Below, in pieces: positions 19,754 through 33,100 of a stretch of 64,000 nucleotides of DNA (position 1 is the first letter of the stretch; every line of letters begins with the position of its first letter). The stretch is from contig NISF01000005.1 in assembly GCA_002270295.1 (NCBI GenBank), positions 186,555 to 250,554 of the forward strand. The letters are read 5' to 3'. The DNA comes from Enterobacter sp. 10-1. Its GTDB lineage: Bacteria > Pseudomonadota > Gammaproteobacteria > Enterobacterales > Enterobacteriaceae. The notes below the pieces were generated by a model. It saw nothing but the letters and a program-made list of their open reading frames with translations, was not told where the DNA came from and did not search any database. The position numbers and the translations under genes are program-made.

Positions 19754-20449
19754 TCACTGCCCGTAATAGGCATTCGCTCCGTGCTTACGCAGGTAGTGTT
19801 TATCCAGCAATTCATCCTGCATATCCGGCAGCTGTGGGGCCAGCTGGCGCGAGAACAGGCCCATATAGGCGCACTCTTCCAGCACTACCGCATTGTGCAC
19901 CGCGTCATGGGCATTTTTACCCCAGGCAAACGGGCCGTGGGAGTGCACCAGTACCGCCGGAACCTGCATCGGGTTCAGGGCGCGCTCCTCAAACGTTTTG
20001 ATGATCACTTCGCCGGTTTCGTACTCGTACTCGCCGCCGATCTCTTCAGAGGTCATCAGGCGAGTGCACGGGATCGTCCCGTAGAAATAGTCCGCGTGGG
20101 TGGTGCCCCAGGCGGGCAGGTCCAGTCCGGCCTGTGACCAGATGGTGGCGTGGCGGGAGTGAGTATGCACAATGCCGCCGATCTCCGGGAAGCGACGATA
20201 TAGCGCCAGGTGCGTTGGCGTATCGGAAGAGGGTTTCTTGCTGCCGTCCACCACTTTGCCGCTGGCGATATCCACCACCACCATATCTTCGGCTTTCATC
20301 ACGGCGTACTCCACGCCAGAAGGCTTAATCACCATCAGTTTGCCGGTTGCATCCACCGCGCTGACGTTACCCCAGGTGAAGGTGACAAGCCCGTGAGCGG
20401 GCAGCGCCAGGTTTGCCGCCAGCACCTCGTCTTTCAGTTGCTCTAACAT
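19754..20449 (-). CDS. sgbE: L-ribulose-5-phosphate 4-epimerase SgbE (YiaS)
   Basis: 231 residues, the length of E. coli SgbE and closely matching it. This class II aldolase-like zinc enzyme converts L-ribulose-5-P to D-xylulose-5-P, the exit to the pentose phosphate pathway. Zinc histidines are visible in [15 protein letters not shown] and [11 protein letters not shown]. It is the last gene of the yiaK-sgbE operon, overlapping sgbU by seven bases. A GGAGGA Shine-Dalgarno lies inside the end of sgbU. It is called YiaS in the Klebsiella ascorbate literature. Confidence 0.96.
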
Positions 20450-21303
20450 ACGAATCCTCCTTCCTCCATACGGGCTTCAATCCAGCGACGGGCCTGAATG
20501 ATTTCCAGTACCGGCTCTTTGGCTTTTTCGGTCCACATCTCAATCAGAAATGCACCGCGATAGTTCAGGTTTTGTAATGTGCTGAAGACATTGACGAAAT
20601 CGACGCATCCTTCACCAAACGGCACATCACGGAACTGGCCTGGGCTGGTGTCGGTGACCGGCTGCGTGTCTTTCAGATGAATAGCGGCGATGCGGTCGAT
20701 GCCCAGAGCCAGCTCTGCCGGGACGTCATTACCCCAGGCGCTGAGGTTGCCCACGTCCGGGTAGACGGTGAACCACGGCGAGGCGAGCAGTTGGTCCCAT
20801 TTTTTCCACTTGGTGATGGAGTTCATAAACGCGGTGTCCATAATCTCCACCGCCAACATCACCTGAGCCCCTGCGGCCTGCTCAACGGCCCACGCCAGCC
20901 CTTCGGCGAAGCGCTGCTGAGTGCCCGCGTCATGCTCTTCGTAATAGACGTCGTAACCGGCGAGCTGGATGGTGCGGATGCCCAAATCGCGCGCCAGCTT
21001 GATGGCTTTGGTCATGATGTCTCTGGCACGCTCACGCACGGCTTCGTCGCGGCTGCCGAACGGAAAACGGCGATGCGCGGAAAGGCACATCGAGGGAATC
21101 GACACATTGGTTTCCAGCATCGCTTCCACTAACGAGGCGCGCTGGGCGGTGGTCCATTCGAGTCGCGACAGGCGCTCGTCGGTTTCGTCGACGGACATTT
21201 CCACGAAGTCGAATCCGCAGCTTTTAGCCAGAACCAGACGCTCCGGCCAGGATAAGTCTTTCGATAACGCTTTTTCATAAATACCTAATGGATGGTTACG
21301 CAT
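20443..21303 (-). CDS. sgbU: L-xylulose-5-phosphate 3-epimerase SgbU (YiaR)
   Basis: 286 residues, the same length as E. coli SgbU. This TIM-barrel (AP endonuclease 2-like) epimerase converts L-xylulose-5-P to L-ribulose-5-P. Metal-ligand stretches are seen as [30 protein letters not shown] and FLIEMWTEK. It is two bases downstream of sgbH, with GGAGAG as ribosome binding site, and overlaps sgbE by seven bases. This tight packing indicates one operon. Confidence 0.95.
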
Positions 21304-21305
21304 AA

Positions 21306-21959
21306 TTACGCTCTCCAGATGTCGCGAATGCGGGCGTGGAACTCTTCAGCCACCTGCTGCGGATCGGCGGCGCTGGAAAGGGCGCGTCCGGCAATAAAGG
21401 CCTTCACGTTAATCTCTTTGAACAGCGGCAGGTCGGCAGGGGTGATGCCCCCCGTGACGGAGAGCTCCAGGCCGATATCCGACAGCGCTTTCATGCGCGC
21501 CAGATCCACTTCGCCCCACTGCTGGCCGCTCGCCTGGGCGTCGCGCCCACGGTGATAAATCGCCTGACGCACGCCGGCGCTGTACCAGTCGCGGGCATCG
21601 TCGAAGGTCCAGTTACCAAACAGCTCGATTTGGATTTCGCCTCCGCGCGCAGCAGCAACGGCGTGACCTTTCTCGATGGTGGCCAGCGGTGCGGCACAGA
21701 TGATGGTCATCCAGTTGGCCCCCGCTTCCAGCGCCTGCTGGGCCAGGGTTTCCCCGGCGTCAGCGACTTTCCAGTCGGCGACGATCAGTTTTTCCGGGCA
21801 TTGGGCGCGCAGGGCGCGAATGGCATTTAGCCCCTCGCTCAGGCAGAGAATGGTGCCTGCCTCTACGATATCCACGCGGTCTTTTAACAACGCAACATCG
21901 CGCTGGGCGGCGGCAAGGTCGGTGTGATCGAGCGCCAGCTGCAGTAATGGTCGGCTCAT
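21306..21959 (-). CDS. sgbH: 3-keto-L-gulonate-6-phosphate decarboxylase SgbH (YiaQ)
   Basis: 217 residues (E. coli 220). It belongs to the orotidine-5'-phosphate decarboxylase/HPS suprafamily: LQLALD at the N-terminus and VADWKVADAGE carrying the Asp-x-Lys-x-x-Asp active-site pattern. It decarboxylates 3-keto-L-gulonate-6-P to L-xylulose-5-P with Mg2+. It overlaps the lyxK stop by four bases (ATGA). The last residues differ from E. coli SgbH. Confidence 0.96.
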   Translation of the reverse strand: MSRPLLQLALDHTDLAAAQRDVALLKDRVDIVEAGTILCLSEGLNAIRALRAQCPEKLIVADWKVADAGETLAQQALEAGANWMTIICAAPLATIEKGHAVAAARGGEIQIELFGNWTFDDARDWYSAGVRQAIYHRGRDAQASGQQWGEVDLARMKALSDIGLELSVTGGITPADLPLFKEINVKAFIAGRALSSAADPQQVAEEFHARIRDIWRA

Positions 21960-23461
21960 AAAGAGTGCTCCTTAATACGGGCGTGAAAGCCCTGAAGTGC
22001 TTCAATTAAAATCTGGTAACGGCGGTATTTGCGCTGGTAGGCCGCGTGGGCGTTCATGTCCGGCGTCAGGGTGCGCATTTCGTAGCTGAGGGTCTGCTGG
22101 GCGTCGGTGAAGTTTGCGTAAACGCCGGTGCCGACGAGGGCTGCAATGGCGGCACCAAAGCAGCCGGTCTCTTCCACCTGCGGCAGTTCAACGGGCAGGC
22201 CGCTGACGTCCGCCAGCATCTGCATCCATACGGGAGAGTGCGCCGGGCCGCCGGTGACGCGCAGGGAACGTACCTCGGTAAAGCGTTCGCGCATGCGGTT
22301 GAGGTGCGTCATGTGGCTAAACACTACCCCTTCATAGACCGCCTGTAACAGGTGCGCGCGGGTGTGCAGCGCCTGCATGCCATAAAAGCCGCTGGTCATA
22401 TCAAGCCCGGCGTTACTGCCGTACAGGAAGGGCAGGAAGAAGACATCGCTGGTGGCTTTCGGCAGGCTGTCGACGAGCTTGTTGATTTCATCAAAGCTGA
22501 TGTCGCCAAATTGTGCGGTCAGCCATTCGAGGTTGCCGGAGGAGGTGGGACTGGCTTCGTGGACGATGTACTGGCCATCGTTGACGTAGCGTCCGTAGAC
22601 GAAGGGGTGCGCTTCGTTATCGCGCAGCCCTTCGGCGATGCCGCTGGTGACCGCCCAGGTTCCCATTACGGCGTTCAGCGTGTACTCGTCATCCAGCCCG
22701 GCGCAGAGAGCGGTAGAAACCACATCAAACAGACCGCCCACGACGGGAGTTCCCGCCGCGAGACCGGTAATGGCGGCTGCCTGAGAGGTGATTTCACCGC
22801 TGATTTGGGATGAACCGACAATGGGCGGCAGCGCAGCGTCGATTTCGCTGATGCCAAGCCACTGCGTCAGGCAGGGATCGTACTGCCCGGAGGTCATATG
22901 GTAGAGGTTGGATTCAGAGATATTGCTCTCTTCGCATCCCTTCACGCCGGTGAGACACCAGCGCAGATAATCGTGGCCCATCATCACGCAGCCAATTTGC
23001 GCGTAACGCTGCGGCTCGTGCTCTTTCACCCAGCGCAGCAGTGAAGCCGGGTGCCCGGTCCATAAGGTCTGGCGCGTTAACGGATAGAGCTTTTGTGGAA
23101 TGCCGTCCTGCTGCCAGCGTTTGACGATCTCCATCGCGCGGCGATCGGAAGAGAGGATCGCGGTGCCCAGCGGCTGGTCATTTTTATCCAGTAAAAACAG
23201 TCCTTTGCCCTGAGCGGAAATACCGACGCCCTTGATTTGTTCCCCGCGAATGCCGGTGCGCTGCAGCAGACGGGAAATGGTTGCCGCGCAGTGCTGCCAC
23301 AATGCCGCCATGTCGCGCTCCGCCCAACCGGGCTGCGGGCTGAGGGTGTGAACGGACTGGCGTTCAATATCGAATTCTTTACCCTGGCTGTTGTACAGGC
23401 CTGCTTTCAGATAAGTACCGCCACAATCGATACCCAGCCAGAAGGTCTCTTTTTCACTCAT
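21956..23461 (-). CDS. lyxK: L-xylulose / 3-keto-L-gulonate kinase LyxK (YiaP)
   Basis: 501 residues (E. coli 498). It is an FGGY carbohydrate kinase, with the N-terminal ATPase motif LGIDCGGTYLKAGLY and the C-terminal RVTGGPAHSPVWMQMLADV signature. In this pathway it phosphorylates 3-keto-L-gulonate at C6; the E. coli enzyme also acts on L-xylulose. It sits between the YiaX2 permease and sgbH. A hairpin in the 54-bp gap upstream (23481-23501) may tune its expression. Confidence 0.95.
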   Translation of the reverse strand: MSEKETFWLGIDCGGTYLKAGLYNSQGKEFDIERQSVHTLSPQPGWAERDMAALWQHCAATISRLLQRTGIRGEQIKGVGISAQGKGLFLLDKNDQPLGTAILSSDRRAMEIVKRWQQDGIPQKLYPLTRQTLWTGHPASLLRWVKEHEPQRYAQIGCVMMGHDYLRWCLTGVKGCEESNISESNLYHMTSGQYDPCLTQWLGISEIDAALPPIVGSSQISGEITSQAAAITGLAAGTPVVGGLFDVVSTALCAGLDDEYTLNAVMGTWAVTSGIAEGLRDNEAHPFVYGRYVNDGQYIVHEASPTSSGNLEWLTAQFGDISFDEINKLVDSLPKATSDVFFLPFLYGSNAGLDMTSGFYGMQALHTRAHLLQAVYEGVVFSHMTHLNRMRERFTEVRSLRVTGGPAHSPVWMQMLADVSGLPVELPQVEETGCFGAAIAALVGTGVYANFTDAQQTLSYEMRTLTPDMNAHAAYQRKYRRYQILIEALQGFHARIKEHSL

Positions 23462-23480
23462 CTTTTTTTCCTGGTTTGCA

Positions 23481-23501
23481 CCCTCTCCCGGTGGGAGAGG
23501 G
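23481..23501. repeat. CCCTCTCCC/GGGAGAGGG hairpin inside the yia operon
   Basis: A perfect 9-bp inverted repeat (23481-23489, 23493-23501) followed by TTGGGGTGAAGG lies between yiaX2 and lyxK. It is the clearest copy of the dispersed hairpin family here. Located in an operon, it would be transcribed and could stabilise the upstream message. Confidence 0.65.
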
Positions 23502-23515
23502 TTGGGGTGAAGGCG

Positions 23516-24835
23516 TCAGATCGCGCGTTTCGGTGCGTTTACCGTACCGATAGACGAACTGTTGGCGTCGCACCTGGACGGCAGCAGCAGCGCCATCAGC
23601 GCGGCAATCGCCAGTGAAATCGCCAGGCAGTAAACGCCCGCATCTTTGCTGTAAAGAGTGATCAGCACGCCCACGGCATACGGGCCGCAGAAGCCGCCGA
23701 GGTTGCCGAGGGCGTTGATCACACCGCGTGCGCCGCCGGCCATTTCGGCGCTGAACAGACGCGCAGGAATGGTCCAGAACACCCCGGCAGCGGACTGCAG
23801 GAAGAAGCCACAGCCGACCAGCGCGGTGTACGACAGCCAGACGCTCTCTTTCAGCACAACGGAAAGGAACATGCAGGTGGCGAAACCAATCAGCGGTAGG
23901 GAGACGAACAGCTTGCGTTTGCCGGTGCGGTCAGACAGGGAAGAGAACAGGAACATCCCGGCAATCGCACCCACGTACGGCAGAATGGCGAGCATCCCGA
24001 CCTGGCCCATACTGGTGTGGGTCAGCTCTTTCAGGATGGTCGGGAGCCACAGGGTGTAACCGTAAATCCCGGTCTGGTAGAAGAAGTTCAGGGCAATCAG
24101 CTGCCACATAGTGCGGTCAGACAGCACGGCGCCCAGAGAGGCATTTACCGTGGTTTTACCGGCAATGGCGCGCTGTTCAGCGGCCAGGGTTTCCACCAGG
24201 TACTTTTTCTCTGCGTCGGAAATCCAGCGGGCTTCCTGCGGGCGGTCGTAAACAGTCAGCGCCCACATCACCAGCACGACGAGGGAGAGCAGGCCTTCGA
24301 TGATGAACAGCCAGCGCCAGTCGAGGGCGGTGATGATCCAGCCAGAGAGTGGGGCGGTGATGATCCCGGCGATCGGCACGAACATGATGACGATGGCGTT
24401 AGCGCGACCGCGCTCGGCATCCGGGAACCAGTTACTGATCATGGTGAGTACCACAGGCAGCATGCCGCCTTCCGCCACACCCAGCAGGAAGCGCAGTGCC
24501 AGCAGCTGGTAGTGGTTGGTAACAAGCCCGGTGAACACGGAAATCACCGCCCACGCGACCAGCGACCAGCCGATGAATTTTTTGCCGCTGCCGTGAACGG
24601 CGATTTTGCCGCCTGGCACCTGTAAGAATAGATAGCCGAGGAAGAAAATACCGCCAGCCAGGCCTGCCATAGTCGCGGTGATGCCTAAATCCTGATCCAT
24701 CCCGCCGGGCATGGCAAAGGCAATATTCACGCGGTCCATATAAGAAATAATACACGCGATAAGAATAGGAGGAATAATTCTTAACCAGCGTTGGCGCGGA
24801 ATATCCGCGGTTGTAGCGTAAGAGGAAGTGTTCAT
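23516..24835 (-). CDS. yiaX2: MFS anion:cation symporter YiaX2
   Basis: 439 residues with about 12 transmembrane segments. It has the ACS-subfamily pattern near the N-terminus (YMDRVNIAFA) and the loop motif RFLLGVAEGGMLPVVLTMISNWFP. By position it is YiaX2 of the Klebsiella yiaKLX1X2PQRS operon, the uptake system for ascorbate or a breakdown product such as 2,3-diketo-L-gulonate, taking the place of E. coli YiaMNO. Cargo is inferred from context. The gap to yiaX1 is 53 bp. Confidence 0.87.
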   Translation of the reverse strand: MNTSSYATTADIPRQRWLRIIPPILIACIISYMDRVNIAFAMPGGMDQDLGITATMAGLAGGIFFLGYLFLQVPGGKIAVHGSGKKFIGWSLVAWAVISVFTGLVTNHYQLLALRFLLGVAEGGMLPVVLTMISNWFPDAERGRANAIVIMFVPIAGIITAPLSGWIITALDWRWLFIIEGLLSLVVLVMWALTVYDRPQEARWISDAEKKYLVETLAAEQRAIAGKTTVNASLGAVLSDRTMWQLIALNFFYQTGIYGYTLWLPTILKELTHTSMGQVGMLAILPYVGAIAGMFLFSSLSDRTGKRKLFVSLPLIGFATCMFLSVVLKESVWLSYTALVGCGFFLQSAAGVFWTIPARLFSAEMAGGARGVINALGNLGGFCGPYAVGVLITLYSKDAGVYCLAISLAIAALMALLLPSRCDANSSSIGTVNAPKRAI

Positions 24836-24888
24836 ATTAATCTCTTGTTTAAATTAACTGACCTTGCGATTAAATTGACGCTTTATAT

Positions 24889-25824
24889 TTATTGTTGGGC
24901 TATGTTTAACGCGTTAATGCCATCGCGTAATATGGCTATGCGATGATTCGCATCAGCATTCTCATCAATTTCCAGTAACTTAATACCGGCAAACTGTAAA
25001 TTTGCTGAATCAGCCACGTTAAATAATTCTTTTGCGTGATCCGCCGTTAACAGGCTTTGCGGGCAGAACGGTGCGAACGGTGCGTGCAGGTCAGTCCATT
25101 CGCCGTACGGCCCTTCGGTCGCGGTGCCAGAGAACATCAGCGCCCCCAGTTTGCCTGCGGCATGTACCGCCTGAGCGTGCGTCAGCGGCAGGGCGGCGTC
25201 ACGCCCTTCAATCGCCGAACGCGCCCAGTTGATACAGATATCAATGCTGTAACCTGCCAGGATCTCCAGCACGTTTTCCAGCGGCAGAAAGCCTTTGCGT
25301 GGCGCGGGCTGGTTCATGGCATCACAATGTTCCAGTACGAGTGAGCATGACCAGTCCCAACCCGCAATCTCTTTGATTGAGCGCGCGAAGGCATCGGCTG
25401 CCTGCTCTACGTTCGCATTGCCCGCAAGCGGTGCCGCCTGCAGTTCAAGGGAGATGACCTTGCCGGCAAAGCGTTTGTTTAGCGCATTGATTTTGTTGCG
25501 TAAATGACGATGGAATTCGACGCACGCCAGGCGCTGTTCTTCATCGCTGGAGGCCAGGCCGAAAGCCGTGTTGCCGCCGCCACGGCGACGCATGGTTTCC
25601 GGGATGGCAGTCACCACCATCTTCCACTCCTGCGGCGTATGCTGGAGCAACCACTCATCGCCATAGGGGTGAAAGTTTTCATGGCATGGCTGCTCCAGGC
25701 CACGGATGTGGGGCGTGTCCGCGAGTAAGCGCCAGAATTCCGTCTCTTCCTGTTCGCTCTTTTGGTGAAATGAAGGCGCGCAAGGGTATGCGCCGATGAT
25801 ATAACCGGCGTCATTTCTTTCCAT
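24889..25824 (-). CDS. yiaX1: DUF4862 family protein YiaX1
   Basis: 311 residues of the DUF4862 family. No signal peptide or membrane segment is seen. Alternating strands and helices, with motifs such as [20 protein letters not shown] and [22 protein letters not shown], suggest a TIM barrel of the sugar-isomerase type, though this is not proven. By position it corresponds to YiaX1 of the Klebsiella ascorbate operon, whose reaction is not firmly established. An isomerase or lactone/keto-acid handling role is a guess. It lies 45 bp after yiaL. Confidence 0.82.
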
Positions 25825-25869
25825 TTTTCACTCCTTTTATTTATCGGTGTTCGACAAATAAATTACGGA

Positions 25870-27347
<1,478 letters not shown>

Positions 27348-27372: not shown

Positions 27373-27399
27373 TTTCACATAGTGGAATGTTATTCCACT
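27373..27399. promoter_or_regulatory. Candidate YiaJ operator upstream of yiaK
   Basis: TTTCACATAGTGGAAT (27373-27388) matches 14 of 16 bases of TTTCGCATAGTGAAAT, read on the reverse strand at 32110-32125 in front of the ABC transporter genes. It overlaps a perfect palindrome AGTGGAAT-GTT-ATTCCACT (27381-27399). Both sites lie in promoter gaps of leftward genes in the YiaJ neighbourhood. Operator function is inferred. Confidence 0.65.
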
Positions 27400-27460
27400 A
27401 AATAGTGTTGGGTTGCAAAACCGCGCCGGCAGGACCGGTGCGTTTCGGTGTTACTCCGGT

Positions 27461-28324
27461 TTATCCCTGAAGGCGGGATGGGGCGAGGCTCACCCGGTAC
27501 AGCGATGTCGTCGCCGTAATAAAAAGCGTATTCCCGTCGGGGCCGCCAAAGGTGCAGTTAGAGACGCGCTCGGGGACCGCAATGGTTTCCAGTAATTCGC
27601 CTGCGGCGGAGAAAATCAAAATCCCTGTCTCGCAGCTGCAGTAAATATTCCCGTCCTGGTCGACGCAGAATCCGTCCGGAATACCCGGTTTGACCTGGGT
27701 TACGACGTGGGAAAATAACGCGTTATCGCCTTCAAGACGGTAAGCGCGAATTTCCCGGCGGCCCTGGCTCGGAAAATCAATAACCGACATATCTGCCACG
27801 TATAGCCATTTATCATCCGGCGAAAAGGCCAGCCCGTTGGGGCGCTGGGTATCGCTGATGGCAATAGCGACCTGGTTACGCGCTTCATCAAATCGGTAGA
27901 CGTAGCAGCCAATTACCTGGCTTGCGGCGCGATAGCCCTCTTCGTCACCGACGATGCCGTAGGGCGGATCGGTAAACCAAATCGACCCGTCCTGGCGCAC
28001 CGCGATATCGTTGGGGGAGTTAAAACGCAGCCCGTCGACTTTATCCACCAGCAGGGTGTGATTGCCCGCGGCGTCGGTACGGCTGATACCGCGCCGACCG
28101 TGCTCGCAGGTCAACAAACGCCCTTGCTTGTCCAGCGCGTTGCCGTTGGCGTAGTGGGATTCGGCACGAAACACGCTGACTCCATTTTGCGCATCCCAAC
28201 GGAACATCCTGTTGCCCTTCACATCGCTGAAAATCAGACACTGCTGGTCTGCCAGCCACACCGGGCCTTCCGCCCAGATCGCCGGTGAGCACAGGCGTTC
28301 AAAACTTCCCGTAACGGCTAACAT
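27461..28324 (-). CDS. SMP-30/gluconolactonase family lactonase
   Basis: 287 residues forming a six-bladed beta-propeller of the SMP-30/regucalcin/gluconolactonase family. Family metal ligands are in place: E19 (WAEGPVW), N163 (RPNGLAFS) and D217 (IPDGFCVD), with N105 in NSPNDIAV. Members hydrolyse sugar-acid lactones. It begins one base after the ABC binding-protein stop, so it is in that operon, and precedes yiaK. Dehydroascorbate hydrolysis would yield the YiaK substrate, so this is an attractive but untested substrate. Not part of the E. coli yia operon. Confidence 0.88.
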   Translation of the reverse strand: MLAVTGSFERLCSPAIWAEGPVWLADQQCLIFSDVKGNRMFRWDAQNGVSVFRAESHYANGNALDKQGRLLTCEHGRRGISRTDAAGNHTLLVDKVDGLRFNSPNDIAVRQDGSIWFTDPPYGIVGDEEGYRAASQVIGCYVYRFDEARNQVAIAISDTQRPNGLAFSPDDKWLYVADMSVIDFPSQGRREIRAYRLEGDNALFSHVVTQVKPGIPDGFCVDQDGNIYCSCETGILIFSAAGELLETIAVPERVSNCTFGGPDGNTLFITATTSLYRVSLAPSRLQG

Positions 28325-28325
28325 C

Positions 28326-29435
28326 TCACTTCACGCCCCAGATGGCTTTGTAGCGATCGCGATAATGGTTGTCCGGATCGAATTCGTTGTTCTGGCCGCC
28401 GTCGGCGCCGATGTTCTCTTTGGTCACCAGATGTGCCGGGGTGACATAACCAGACGGCTCTTTGCCCGCGAAGGCGCGGTTAAATTCATCCAGCAGCTGC
28501 CAGCCGTGCAGTTTCAACGGCTCTGGTACGGTTGCGATCTGCGCTTTGCCTTCACGCACGCGCTGGTAGGCGGTGACGGAACCATCGCCAGCGGAGATGT
28601 TGTACGGCGGTTTATCTCCGGTGCCTTTGCCCGCGGTTTGCAGGGCTGGGGCCATAAAGTCGAAGTACAGGTCGTTAATCGCCAGCGAGTATTCGAACCT
28701 GTCGCCATATTTTTGGATCAGGCTGTAGGTCATGCCCGGCATGCGGTTGGAGGTGTCGGCAAGCGGGGTATCGATAAACTCCACCACCTGGCAGCCGCTG
28801 CACTGCTCAATCACCTTCTTCATCGCGTTGGCTTTATCCAGCGCGATTTGGTACAGCGAGTCGGTGAAAATAAGCACTTTGGCGGTGCCGTTGGATTTCG
28901 CCACCGCATACAGCGCCGCCATGCGCGAGACTTCGTTCGAGTCGGAGGTCACGTTGTAGAAAATGTTGTAAGCCGGAACCGGGCCAGGCGCGGGAACCGC
29001 ATGCCATGCGGTCAGCACGATGCCCTCTTTCACCGCTTTTTTCAGCGGAATTTTGGCGACGTTCGGGTTCCAGCCGCCAATGACGATACCGTCCGGTTTG
29101 CGGGCGATCGCCTGGTTTAGTGCCGCCAGTTGATCTTTCACCGAACCTGCGCCATCCAGCACATCCAGCTGCCAGCCTGCGGTTTTCGCCGCTTCTTCCA
29201 GACCCTCTTTAACGCCCAGCACGCCGCCGTTTTTCATGTCCGAGGCGATGAAAATGATCTTTTTATTAGGCTGCAGCACCGGGCCCTGGGTTGGGCCATC
29301 CCATGCGGTGACTGGCGCGGTCGCTTTGGCAATCGCCGTTTTCGCCTGCTGAACAAAGGTATCGTCGGCGAGGCTGAAACCACTTGCCATCATCAACCCG
29401 GCAGCCAGACAGTATTGAACTATTTTGTTATTCAT
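28326..29435 (-). CDS. Ribose-type (CUT2) ABC transporter periplasmic binding protein
   Basis: 369 residues with a signal peptide (MNNKIVQYCLAAGLMMASGFSLA). The mature protein has a type I periplasmic-binding fold with KIIFIASDMKNGGVLGVKEG and IVIGGWNPN elements. It should deliver a sugar or sugar-acid ligand to the adjacent permease and ATPase. The ligand is unknown. Genetic context with YiaJ, SMP-30 lactonase and YiaK suggests an ascorbate-related or other aldonolactone compound. The gene is 21 bp after the permease. Confidence 0.86.
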   Translation of the reverse strand: MNNKIVQYCLAAGLMMASGFSLADDTFVQQAKTAIAKATAPVTAWDGPTQGPVLQPNKKIIFIASDMKNGGVLGVKEGLEEAAKTAGWQLDVLDGAGSVKDQLAALNQAIARKPDGIVIGGWNPNVAKIPLKKAVKEGIVLTAWHAVPAPGPVPAYNIFYNVTSDSNEVSRMAALYAVAKSNGTAKVLIFTDSLYQIALDKANAMKKVIEQCSGCQVVEFIDTPLADTSNRMPGMTYSLIQKYGDRFEYSLAINDLYFDFMAPALQTAGKGTGDKPPYNISAGDGSVTAYQRVREGKAQIATVPEPLKLHGWQLLDEFNRAFAGKEPSGYVTPAHLVTKENIGADGGQNNEFDPDNHYRDRYKAIWGVK

Positions 29436-29456
29436 TTTCAGTTCCTTACGCGAGAG

Positions 29457-30527
29457 TCATTGGGTAACGGAGGAGCCTGATGCTGGCGATTGTGCCCGCT
29501 GCACCAGTTTCTTATTTAATGCCCGACGGCGTTGGGCGTAGCCTGCCAGGGTAATCGACAGCAGCAGCGTCGCGCCGTTAAACAGCGGTTCGACCCAAAA
29601 CGCGCCGCCGAACTGCTGGATGCCCGCAATACCAATCGCCAGCACCGCAATACCTACCACCGTGCCCCAGACGTTCACCCGGCCGGGACGAATGGTGGTG
29701 CTGCCGAGGAACGCGCCCACCAGAGCCGGGAGCAGATAATCCATACCGACGCTGGCCTGGCCCACGCCCTGCTCGGCGGCGATGATCACCCCGGTAAAGC
29801 CGGTTAAGGTGCTGGAAGTCATAAATGCCCCGATGATGTACCGATTAACGGAAATGCCGTTGAGCGCTGCGGCGACCGGGTTACCGCCCACCGCATACAT
29901 GCAGCGACCAATCGGGGTATGTTCGGTGATAATCCACAACACCACGGCGGCAAAAAGGACGTAGAAGGCCACCACCGGAATGCCAAACAGGTCGGAGTGA
30001 TGCAGGGCGATAAAGGCGTCCGGTAGGTCACCGACGATCTGCCGACCGCCAGAGTGCCAGAGCGCGACGGCGTACAGCACCGTACCGGAACCCAGGGTCG
30101 CAACAAAGCTGTCGATATCCGCCAGCGCCACCAGAATACCGTTCAGCAACCCGTAGAGCGCGGAGAGCACCAGCACGATCGCCACCGCGGCGGGCCAGGA
30201 GAAACCATATTCAACCTGCAAAGTGATGGCGAGGATGTGCCAGAGTACGATGCCGAAGCCGACGTTCAGGTCGATTTTGCCGACAATCATCGGAATGGTT
30301 GCTGCCAGCGCCAGCAGGGCGATTTTCGATTTGCTGTCGAGAATCGCCTGCAACGTCAACAGGGAGGCAAACGAAGGCGTTGTCAGTGAAAAAACGATAA
30401 CCAGCACCACGCAGATCGCGGGTAAACCGTAACGGGTGGTCAATTGTCCAAGCCAGGTGGCCGCACCGTGTTCATGAAGTGATACGCGTGATTCCAGGGC
30501 CGTCGATTTCATTGATGTTTTAGCCAT
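29457..30527 (-). CDS. CUT2 ABC transporter permease
   Basis: 356 residues, multi-spanning, with the RbsC/XylH-family patterns ALADIDSFVATLGSGTVLYA and TGFTGVIIAAEQGVGQASVGMDYLLPALVGAFLGS. The single permease would form the channel as a homodimer. ATG at 30527 (MAKTSMKSTALE) is chosen. An open frame continues upstream to 30800, but only as an out-of-frame shadow of the ATPase gene. It sits 13 bp after the ATPase gene. Confidence 0.88.
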   Translation of the reverse strand: MAKTSMKSTALESRVSLHEHGAATWLGQLTTRYGLPAICVVLVIVFSLTTPSFASLLTLQAILDSKSKIALLALAATIPMIVGKIDLNVGFGIVLWHILAITLQVEYGFSWPAAVAIVLVLSALYGLLNGILVALADIDSFVATLGSGTVLYAVALWHSGGRQIVGDLPDAFIALHHSDLFGIPVVAFYVLFAAVVLWIITEHTPIGRCMYAVGGNPVAAALNGISVNRYIIGAFMTSSTLTGFTGVIIAAEQGVGQASVGMDYLLPALVGAFLGSTTIRPGRVNVWGTVVGIAVLAIGIAGIQQFGGAFWVEPLFNGATLLLSITLAGYAQRRRALNKKLVQRAQSPASGSSVTQ

Positions 30528-30540
30528 AACGCACTCCGAC

Positions 30541-32061
30541 TTAATGTATGGTGCCGCTGCCCGATGCCAGCTCAAGCAATCTGGCAAAGGTGACATCCTG
30601 GTTGAGAAGTTCGCCGACGATCTGCCCGCGGTTAAACACCAGCGCCCGGTTACAGATGTGCGCCACCTCTTCCAGGTCGTTGGAGATGACCAGAATGGCA
30701 ACGCCGTTTTGCAGCGCCTGATTGAGTAAATCGTAAATTTCTGCGCGTGCGCCCACGTCGACGCCAGCAGAAGGATCTTCCAGGATGAGCAGAGGGGCAT
30801 TGAGCGAAAGCCAGCGTGCCATTACCACTTTTTGCTGGTTGCCGCCCGACAGTGCACTGATTTCAATATTTATCTGCGAAGGGCGCACGTCGAACTGGCG
30901 GATTTTCTCCCGGCTCAGCGGCGCTTCGCTTTTTTCGTTATAGCGGGAAAGCAGCGCATGACCGTGTTTACAGGGGTTCATAAACAGGTTTTCACGCACC
31001 ATCATGCCCGGGATCAGACTTTCATGAAGACGGTCGCCTGCGACAAAAGAGACGCCTGCGGACATCGCCTCCCCTGGTGTTGTCGCCGTAAACGGCACGC
31101 CGTTTAAAGTGATTTGTCCACTTTCCTGCGTCCGGCAGGCAAACAGTAAACGTCCAATCTCTTCCTGGCCGGCGCCACGCAGACCGGCGAGTGCCACCAT
31201 CTCACCGGCACGCAGCTCGAAGGAGACCGGCCCGGTATCGCCCACTTTGACGTGGTCCATTTTCAACAGCACCGGGGCGCTGGCATCGGGTAAGGCCTGA
31301 CGCTGGTCATCGCGCAGGCTTTCGCCCACAATCAGTTCGACCAGACCACGCAGGCTGTAGCGGCCGATATCGCCGCCCCCGGCGTAGCAGCCGTCGCGCA
31401 TGGCGCAAACGGTATCAGCCATCTCCATCACCTCATCCAGGCGGTGGGTGATGTAAATCATGCCTACCTGCTTCTCGCGCAGGATGTTCATGACGCGGAA
31501 CAGGTGGCGTACATCGTCGGCAGGCAGCGAGGCTGTCGGTTCATCGAGCACCAGCACCGAGGCGTCAACTGCCACCGCGCGGGCAATCGCCAGCAGGGAT
31601 TTTTCGGTGCGGGAAAGGTCAAACACGCGGTCATCCGGGTCGAGCTGAATGCCGATATCTTCCAGCGCTTTTTGCGCCTGGCGTTTGGTGGCCGCCCAGT
31701 CAATCAGGCCGAAGCGACGGGGAAACCCCATCACCAGCGCCATGTTTTCGGCGATGGTCATCCACTCTACCAGGCCTAAATCCTGATGAATAAAGGCGAT
31801 AGGCTGTTCGTTGCCCTGACGTAACGCGGCGGCAGAATCCACCGGCTGACCGCGAAACAGGATCTCGCCACCATCACGGGAATAGACGCCAGCCAGCACC
31901 TTAATCAACGTCGATTTACCGGCACCGTTTTCTCCCAGCAGCGCCACAACCTGGCCCGGATAAATATCCAGACTGACGTTATTGACCGCCACATTTCCAC
32001 CAAAGCGCTTGATAATGTGGCGCATGGATAACAACGGAGACAACACTGCTGCTTCTGCCAT
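30541..32061 (-). CDS. CUT2 ABC transporter double ATPase
   Basis: 506 residues with two ABC modules. The first has Walker A GENGAGKST, Walker B VLVLDEPTAS and an unusual signature LSRTEKSLLAIARA in place of LSGGQ. The second has a degenerate Walker A (LRGAGQEE), as is common in RbsA-type proteins, a good LSGGNQQK signature and LILEDPSAGVD. It energises uptake through the adjacent permease. It is the first gene of the leftward ABC-lactonase operon, divergent from yiaJ. Confidence 0.88.
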   Translation of the reverse strand: MAEAAVLSPLLSMRHIIKRFGGNVAVNNVSLDIYPGQVVALLGENGAGKSTLIKVLAGVYSRDGGEILFRGQPVDSAAALRQGNEQPIAFIHQDLGLVEWMTIAENMALVMGFPRRFGLIDWAATKRQAQKALEDIGIQLDPDDRVFDLSRTEKSLLAIARAVAVDASVLVLDEPTASLPADDVRHLFRVMNILREKQVGMIYITHRLDEVMEMADTVCAMRDGCYAGGGDIGRYSLRGLVELIVGESLRDDQRQALPDASAPVLLKMDHVKVGDTGPVSFELRAGEMVALAGLRGAGQEEIGRLLFACRTQESGQITLNGVPFTATTPGEAMSAGVSFVAGDRLHESLIPGMMVRENLFMNPCKHGHALLSRYNEKSEAPLSREKIRQFDVRPSQINIEISALSGGNQQKVVMARWLSLNAPLLILEDPSAGVDVGARAEIYDLLNQALQNGVAILVISNDLEEVAHICNRALVFNRGQIVGELLNQDVTFARLLELASGSGTIH

Positions 32062-32284
32062 TTAAGGTGACCTCCCGCTGAGGGAATAAGAACGTTTTAC
32101 AATCTATAAATTTCACTATGCGAAATCTGATTTCAAATATATCGATCATGATTTCACAAAGCAATCGGGGAGGATGTTTTTGAAATTCAATAAAATCAGT
32201 TAATTACAAAATTTCTGTTCAGATCGTGAAGTGAAACACACTTTGCGCTACCATCAGGTCGCCACAGAATGGAGAGCGGAAGCG
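32062..32284. promoter_or_regulatory. yiaJ / ABC operon divergent control region
   Basis: 223 bp, AT-rich. It contains the candidate YiaJ operator at 32110-32125, about 49 bp upstream of the ABC ATPase start, and several further ATTTCA/TGAAAT half-sites (for example near 32130 and 32181), suggesting multiple regulator contacts. GGAGAGCGGAAG precedes the yiaJ ATG. No clear CRP site was found. Confidence 0.55.
32110..32125. promoter_or_regulatory. Candidate YiaJ operator upstream of ABC operon
   Basis: Read leftward the sequence is TTTCGCATAGTGAAAT, nearly identical to TTTCACATAGTGGAAT at 27373-27388. It is itself palindromic in its ends (ATTTC...GAAAT). IclR-family proteins typically bind such short palindromes. 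Assignment to YiaJ is by context. Confidence 0.65.
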
Positions 32285-33100
32285 ATGAACACAAAAGAGA
32301 GTGAAAACACGCCGGAGAAAGAGCGGCCGGCTGGAAGCCAAAGCTTGTTTCGCGGTTTGATGTTGATAGAAATCTTAAGCAATTACCCCAACGGTTGCCC
32401 GCTGGCGCATCTTTCAGAACTGGCCGGGCTGAACAAAAGCACCGTGCACCGATTACTACAAGGGCTGCAATCCTGTGGCTACGTCACTCCCGCGCCCGCC
32501 GCCGGGAGTTACCGTTTAACCACGAAATTTATCGCCGTCGGTCAAAAAGCCCTGACGTCGCTGAATATTATCCACGTGGCGGCGCCGCATCTGGAAGCGC
32601 TAAACCTCTCTACCGGGGAAACCATCAACTTCTCCAGCCGTGAGGACGATCACGCCATTCTGATTTATAAGCTGGAACCGACGACCGGGATGCTGCGTAC
32701 CCGCGCTTATATCGGCCAACATATGCCGCTGTACTGTTCGGCAATGGGTAAGATTTACATGGCGTTTGGTCAGCAGGAATATGTGAAAGAGTACTGGGAG
32801 ACGCATCAGGAGCAGATTCAGCCTCTGACGCGCAACACCATTACGGGGCTACCTGCGATGTACGATGAGCTGGCGCAAATTCGTGAAAGCGTGATGGCGA
32901 TGGACCGCGAAGAGAATGAGCTTGGCGTTTCCTGCATTGCTGTTCCGGTGTTTGATATTCAACACCGTGTGCCGTATGCCATCTCCATCTCACTCTCGAC
33001 GTCACGTCTGAAACAGATTGGTGAGAAAAATTTGCTCAAGCCGCTGCGCGACACGGCACAGGCCATCTCTAACGAACTGGGATTTACCTTACGCGTGTAG
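32285..33100 (+). CDS. yiaJ: IclR-family regulator YiaJ (PlaR)
   Basis: 271 residues, closely matching E. coli YiaJ. An N-terminal winged helix (about 20-85; LAGLNKSTVHRLLQGLQSCGYV) is followed by the IclR ligand-binding domain. E. coli YiaJ represses yiaKLMNO-lyxK-sgbHUE. In Klebsiella the inducer is linked to ascorbate metabolism. ATG at 32285 (MNTKESENT) is preferred over 32231 because of GGAGAGCGGAAG and the E. coli-like body. Here it is divergent from the ABC-lactonase genes instead of directly from yiaK. Confidence 0.95.
   Translation: MNTKESENTPEKERPAGSQSLFRGLMLIEILSNYPNGCPLAHLSELAGLNKSTVHRLLQGLQSCGYVTPAPAAGSYRLTTKFIAVGQKALTSLNIIHVAAPHLEALNLSTGETINFSSREDDHAILIYKLEPTTGMLRTRAYIGQHMPLYCSAMGKIYMAFGQQEYVKEYWETHQEQIQPLTRNTITGLPAMYDELAQIRESVMAMDREENELGVSCIAVPVFDIQHRVPYAISISLSTSRLKQIGEKNLLKPLRDTAQAISNELGFTLRV

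Follow-up and report, generated by a model that had tools for sequence, protein, structure and literature searches.

A conserved candidate YiaJ operator precedes both an ABC transporter/SMP-30 gene block and the yiaK genes in Enterobacter sp. 10-1

Introduction

The IclR-family regulator YiaJ, also called PlaR, and the yiaK operon that lies beside its gene are already known. In the E. coli study PMC6958661, PlaR is reported to bind the yiaK promoter, its binding box overlaps that promoter, and a yiaK-lacZ fusion is derepressed in a plaR mutant. The same study names L-ascorbate and D-galacturonate as compounds that act on E. coli PlaR, and an author correction (PMC7021838) concerns the abstract of that paper. 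The inducer is not beyond doubt, because, according to PMC5540944, 0 of 80 compounds changed target expression in an earlier study.

We analyzed the yiaJ locus of Enterobacter sp. 10-1 within a 64,000-nucleotide stretch of contig NISF01000005.1 (positions 186,555 to 250,554), which we call the window. Here, four genes for an ATP-binding cassette (ABC) sugar transporter and an SMP-30-type lactonase, referred to below as the cassette, separate yiaJ from yiaK. A sequence-only reading of the window had noted a shared 16-bp motif before the cassette and before yiaK and had proposed that the cassette genes were added to the locus and brought under the same regulator. We report that this motif belongs to a 25-bp element that looks like a predicted binding site of the YiaJ repressor, present once before the ABC/SMP-30 block and once before the yiaK genes. 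With one putative YiaJ site before each, the two blocks are probably switched together. A search of open papers by title and abstract beginnings returned no description of cassette control by YiaJ; Ibanez 2000 and Campos 2008 might contain one.

Results

The two 16-mers are at 27373-27388 (+ strand) and 32110-32125 (- strand), where they had been placed, and agree at 14 of 16 positions. They also occupy, as had been claimed, the only promoter gaps of the leftward block, which measure 223 bp and 113 bp, while every other gap is between -7 and 54 bp. The match taken alone is suggestive only. When the 113- and 223-bp gaps were dinucleotide shuffled and the best 16-mer shared between them on both strands was recorded, 14/16 was reached in 13 of 2000 shuffles and 13/16 in 200 of 2000. 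Allowing up to two mismatches, the degenerate 16-mer occurs 9 times in the 6.1-Mb genome to which the window belongs, compared with 8 times for a control, and its exact form is found only at the window's two places. The earlier alignment needs one correction: it had set opposite strands side by side, pairing the first palindrome across them, and on one strand the agreement falls to 11/16. Comparison on one strand showed instead that the two copies share one orientation and that the common element is 25 bp long, with a third half-site (ATTTCA or ATTCCA).

The composite element, TTYCRCnnnGYGRAATnnnATTYCA, consists of three half-sites that form two overlapping palindromes with centers 10 bp apart. 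Putative operator O1 (32111..32135, + strand; TTTCAC TAT GCGAAAT CTG ATTTCA) lies 49 bp before the ATPase start and overlaps the 16-mer at 32110-32125. Putative operator O2 (27373..27397, + strand; TTTCAC ATA GTGGAAT GTT ATTCCA) is 25 bp before the yiaK start and overlaps the 16-mer at 27373-27388. Both match the composite with 0 mismatches. A pattern built from the operators of cassette-free loci ranked O1 first in the window's own genome (0 mismatches) and O2 second (1 mismatch), followed by five sites at 2 mismatches, with 45 sites in total versus 17 for a control. For a model, R1, we used the 27 distinct operators found at 54 cassette-free loci, having excluded six yiaJ-yiaK spacers beforehand (L018, L031, L052-L054, and L059); in the same genome it placed O1 at an E value of 5.2e-11, with the next best hit at 0.088. 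The window has an intact yiaJ orthologue adjoining a target and the conserved spacer element upstream (O1 with 0 mismatches and O2 with 1).

The element is also present, with 2 mismatches, in the plaR-yiaK spacer of E. coli K-12. When the published PlaR box is taken as 21 bp long, its best K-12 match falls on the second palindrome of the element with 3 mismatches, and the box as printed, with 20 letters, has 5 mismatches at the same place. The 25-bp element, with three half-sites and a fixed polarity, would be a fuller YiaJ operator than the published 21-bp box.

For comparison with relatives, we took the best 80 of 87 named yiaJ loci (L001-L080), mapped their neighboring genes and compared their gaps, and then fetched 27 cassette regions, a number of which are from the same species or records. 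The motif search upstream of yiaJ and yiaK, which the sequence-only reading had proposed as a check, found the element again before the ATPase gene and before yiaK. All of the compared yiaJ-yiaK, yiaJ-ATPase, yiaJ-SMP30, and SMP30-yiaK gaps hold it with 0 to 3 mismatches. Counting identical binding-protein DNA once and leaving out the window gave 40 distinct cassette loci. Thirty-nine of these adjoin yiaJ, and in every one of the 39 the element precedes the ATPase gene in one polarity (0 mismatches in 7, 1 in 19, 2 in 12, and 3 in 1). The sole cassette that does not adjoin yiaJ (L110:4484-8242) has no yiaJ or SMP-30 match within its 14.5 kb and lacks the element, the best match there having 6 mismatches; the surrounding genes, judged by eye, are presumably housekeeping genes. 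A second element precedes yiaK in 29 of the 30 blocks that have yiaK beyond SMP-30, and in the exception, L097, yiaK and SMP-30 are merely ~26 bp apart. No element at up to 3 mismatches was found in L051, L077, or L078, whose fetched stretches include yiaJ but no yiaK and no cassette.

The fetched loci, 1,949,338 bases in all, contain 149 sites with no more than 2 mismatches, and 146 of these precede the ATPase gene, yiaK, or SMP30 with fixed polarity. The remaining three are the K-12 yiaK site, which is absent from the gene table, and one Klebsiella indica site present in two records, which precedes an operon of a major facilitator superfamily (MFS) sugar transporter and SMP-30. In Mangrovibacter, the cassette is downstream of yiaJ on the same strand and groups with Serratia-side cassettes; its element is on the other strand, so that the polarity toward the ATPase gene is kept. 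The comparison gives good support to the proposal of shared YiaJ control: the element accompanies yiaJ, yiaK, and the cassette, retains its polarity in Mangrovibacter, and is absent before the yiaJ-less cassette.

Two unusual loci were seen among the relatives. In K. indica, a second yiaJ locus (L059:9862-12472) has an SMP-30 gene and an MFS_2 sugar transporter gene with a perfect element before them. What appears to be one Prodigiosinella confusarubida genome (L080 and L100) has a pair of yiaJ paralogues, of which one adjoins yiaK and lacks the cassette, while the other adjoins the cassette and has no yiaK nearby.

The five further 2-mismatch sites in the window's own genome were considered as a wider regulon and rejected; L139 and L141 are inside open reading frames (ORFs), and L138, L140, and L142 are outside ORFs of at least 100 amino acids. 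Only L140 was judged noteworthy. This operator-like site (L140:1501-1525) is 29 bp before a KdgM oligogalacturonate-porin gene and may be a KdgR site.

The sequence-only reading had correctly named the four genes that separate yiaJ from yiaK. Upstream of them and divergent is yiaJ (32285..33100, + strand), whose product matches Pfam IclR_C and HTH_IclR and shares 89-97% identity with YiaJ from E. coli relatives and from Phytobacter. The cassette, on the - strand, comprises an AraG/RbsA-like ABC sugar transporter ATPase (30541..32061), a permease with a BPD_transp_2 match (29457..30527), a periplasmic sugar-binding protein of the Peripla_BP_4 family (28326..29435) that has merely weak matches to sugar-binding proteins, and a predicted SMP-30/gluconolactonase-like lactonase (27461..28324). 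The last has a Pfam SGL domain at 159.4 bits, against a gathering score of 26.3, and the closest solved chains by alignment are the gluconolactonases 3dr2 and 3e5z. The second leftward unit begins with yiaK for 2,3-diketo-L-gulonate reductase (26349..27347, - strand; NCBIfam NF009750, 645.8 bits against a cut-off of 316). It continues as ORFs on the same strand at 19754..26337, with yiaL, X1 (DUF4862), X2 (MFS), and lyxK supported by family matches, sgbH assigned by position and comparison, and two genes that we take from gene order to be sgbU and sgbE.

In the yiaJ-ATPase spacer there is what we take to be an IHF-like site (32194..32206, + strand), with 1 mismatch to the consensus and 0 in K-12. 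A presumed CRP-like site (32225..32240, + strand) has 2 mismatches to the consensus, as it does in K-12, and the block holding it is conserved in the spacer alignment. By the same consensuses, the best matches in the yiaK gap have 2 mismatches for IHF and 4 for CRP. Scanning both gaps for terminators gave no hits.

The cassette occurs widely, though its distribution is patchy. Its binding protein was found in 28 of 392 genomes of the family and 15 of 154 genera, and the two-operator arrangement recurs in Serratia, Brenneria, Phytobacter, Raoultella ornithinolytica, and others. A megablast search of 20,395 E. coli records found no cassette. The only plasmid matches were two partial ones, from Pantoea, covering 32-33% of the query. 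The statement that yiaJ abuts yiaK in E. coli and Klebsiella is correct for E. coli K-12 and the K. pneumoniae type strain, which have no cassette, but "Klebsiella" is too broad; among the yiaJ-bearing genomes of the window's GTDB genus (20 searched), 5 of 14, the window's own genome included, have the ATPase gene beside yiaJ.

The cassette proteins co-diverge with YiaJ and YiaK, with distance correlations of 0.85-0.93 over 33 rows and the Mangrovibacter cassette as the exception. A quick YiaJ tree with 100 rows, of which 37 have the cassette, requires no fewer than 9 changes in cassette presence, or 5 counting starred branches alone, so both gains and losses are possible. In this tree, L031, a metagenome assembly of Pluralibacter, has L096 as its sister row with high support. 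L031 is without the cassette, yet its spacer is collinear with both L096 spacers, contains both operators, and retains 12 nucleotides (1 mismatch) of the end of the SMP-30 gene, stop codon included. We read the L031 spacer as a deletion scar. Phytobacter massiliensis (L018) likewise has two operators and no cassette. Cassette loss is likely in both L031 and L018, since each keeps two operators without the genes between them.

Between 24720 and 32240 (~24.72-32.24 kb, ~7.5 kb), the window copy itself shares 93-98% identity with both R. ornithinolytica L046 and Enterobacter sp. JUb54 L026, while identity beside this tract is 73-87% and that to JUb54 over 8-52 kb is 74-92%. The edges are sharp, one inside X2 and one just before yiaJ, so that the exchanged tract contains the cassette and both operators and stops short of the yiaJ start. 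The window's YiaJ groups with Phytobacter on the YiaJ tree, whereas its genome is in the same GTDB genus (Klebsiella/Raoultella) as R. ornithinolytica and K. indica, which makes the locus a mosaic.

Discussion

We regard this as a real and conserved two-operator YiaJ locus, as judged from comparative sequence data. The place, polarity, and conservation of the element and its co-occurrence with yiaJ and its targets are observed, and O1 is the counterpart of the yiaJ-yiaK spacer operator of cassette-free relatives. YiaJ binding, repression, and the identity of the inducer are predicted from these data. We are confident that O1 and O2 are YiaJ operators, through which two leftward units would be repressed until an inducer releases them, and that at least one cassette-free lineage, and probably several, once had the cassette and lost it.

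In the mechanism that we propose, YiaJ without inducer would sit on O1, before the ATPase gene, and on O2, before yiaK, repressing unit 1 (the ABC transporter and SMP-30 lactonase) and unit 2 (yiaKL-X1-X2-lyxK-sgbHUE), and inducer would free both operators together. The cassette would then probably import a sugar-acid lactone, perhaps dehydroascorbate, and SMP-30 may open the lactone to give 2,3-diketo-L-gulonate for YiaK. The K. indica variant, with a different sugar transporter, SMP-30, and a perfect element, fits this lactone-uptake idea. More tentatively, the YiaJ operator may mark a lactone-uptake module (ABC, or MFS in K. indica, plus SMP-30) that feeds YiaK. This would be a route for vitamin C separate from the Ula phosphotransferase system and old in the Enterobacterales, of which the E. 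coli locus would be a remnant after deletion.

Several results weigh against the proposed two-operator control. Model R1 did not recover O2, either in the window's own genome at E values up to 10 (150 of 2116 first-look candidates scored) or in the window at E values up to 1. O2 also fits the published PlaR box badly, with 7 mismatches to the 21-bp reading compared with 3 for K-12 and 4 for O1. Sigma-70 scans of both gaps recognized no sigma-70-like promoter. At 3 mismatches, 5 of 32 sites are at these genes and 27 of 32 are elsewhere, so weak sites carry little meaning. The composite was drawn with L001-L080 in view and some records are related, so the locus counts are not independent events. 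The lactone substrate is argued from gene content.

One alternative is that only O2 works as a target operator, in which case O1 would be left over from the former yiaK promoter, or would serve yiaJ autoregulation, and would not control the cassette. O1 and its spacer do align with the yiaJ-yiaK spacer of cassette-free relatives, and O1 therefore need not have arisen for the cassette. We consider this explanation improbable, because Mangrovibacter has its yiaK operator in the usual spacer and a separate element before the ATPase gene, and because the element also precedes the ATPase gene in L111 and in L098 and L100-L103, where the cassette is divergent from yiaJ and the fetched stretch has no yiaK match. 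Still less probable is that KdgR, or some other IclR-family protein whose box is similar, binds O1 and O2 instead of or besides YiaJ. According to PMC6958661, KdgR recognizes a similar sequence and shares several targets with PlaR, and a 2-mismatch site precedes the KdgM porin gene, but the element at up to 2 mismatches accompanies yiaJ, yiaK, and the cassette, and the yiaJ-less cassette has none before it. A chance origin of the 14/16 match, which the shuffles and the unremarkable genome count of the degenerate 16-mer might have allowed, is ruled out by the comparative counts, given the element's conservation and fixed polarity across the Enterobacterales.

Returning to YiaJ control of both units, we find that the cassette's history probably runs opposite to the "added genes" picture. 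As a general account, acquisition under an existing regulator is not supported, given the widespread two-operator arrangement, the co-divergence of the proteins, and the deletion scar; it is consistent with Mangrovibacter and with the tract that the window and R. ornithinolytica share. We infer that E. coli too lost the cassette and probably carries a cut-down locus. These results link an uncharacterized ABC transporter and its lactonase partner to the breakdown of diketogulonate in many Enterobacterales associated with plants and the gut, narrow the transporter's substrate to a short, testable list, and suggest that the model E. coli locus may miss an uptake step found in its relatives.

Like the window, the E. 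coli K-12 plaR (yiaJ)-yiaKLMNO-lyxK-sgbHUE locus has a divergent IclR regulator, a yiaK operon, and the spacer element (2 mismatches), but it has no ABC/SMP-30 cassette and one operator, and the yiaMNO transporter replaces X1-X2. The Klebsiella yiaKLX1X2PQRS operon, named in the reference list of PMC6958661, shares with the window the order yiaK, yiaL, X1, X2, lyxK, and sgbH, as in K. pneumoniae L033, which unlike the window has no cassette between yiaJ and yiaK. The closest counterparts are the yiaJ-ABC-SMP30-yiaK blocks of Serratia, Brenneria, Phytobacter, and R. ornithinolytica, with the cassette in the same place and both operators. Serratia and Brenneria differ in having longer gaps and cassette, YiaJ, and YiaK proteins that are 61-86% identical, while R. 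ornithinolytica has the shared tract nearly as in the window but a Klebsiella-type yiaJ.

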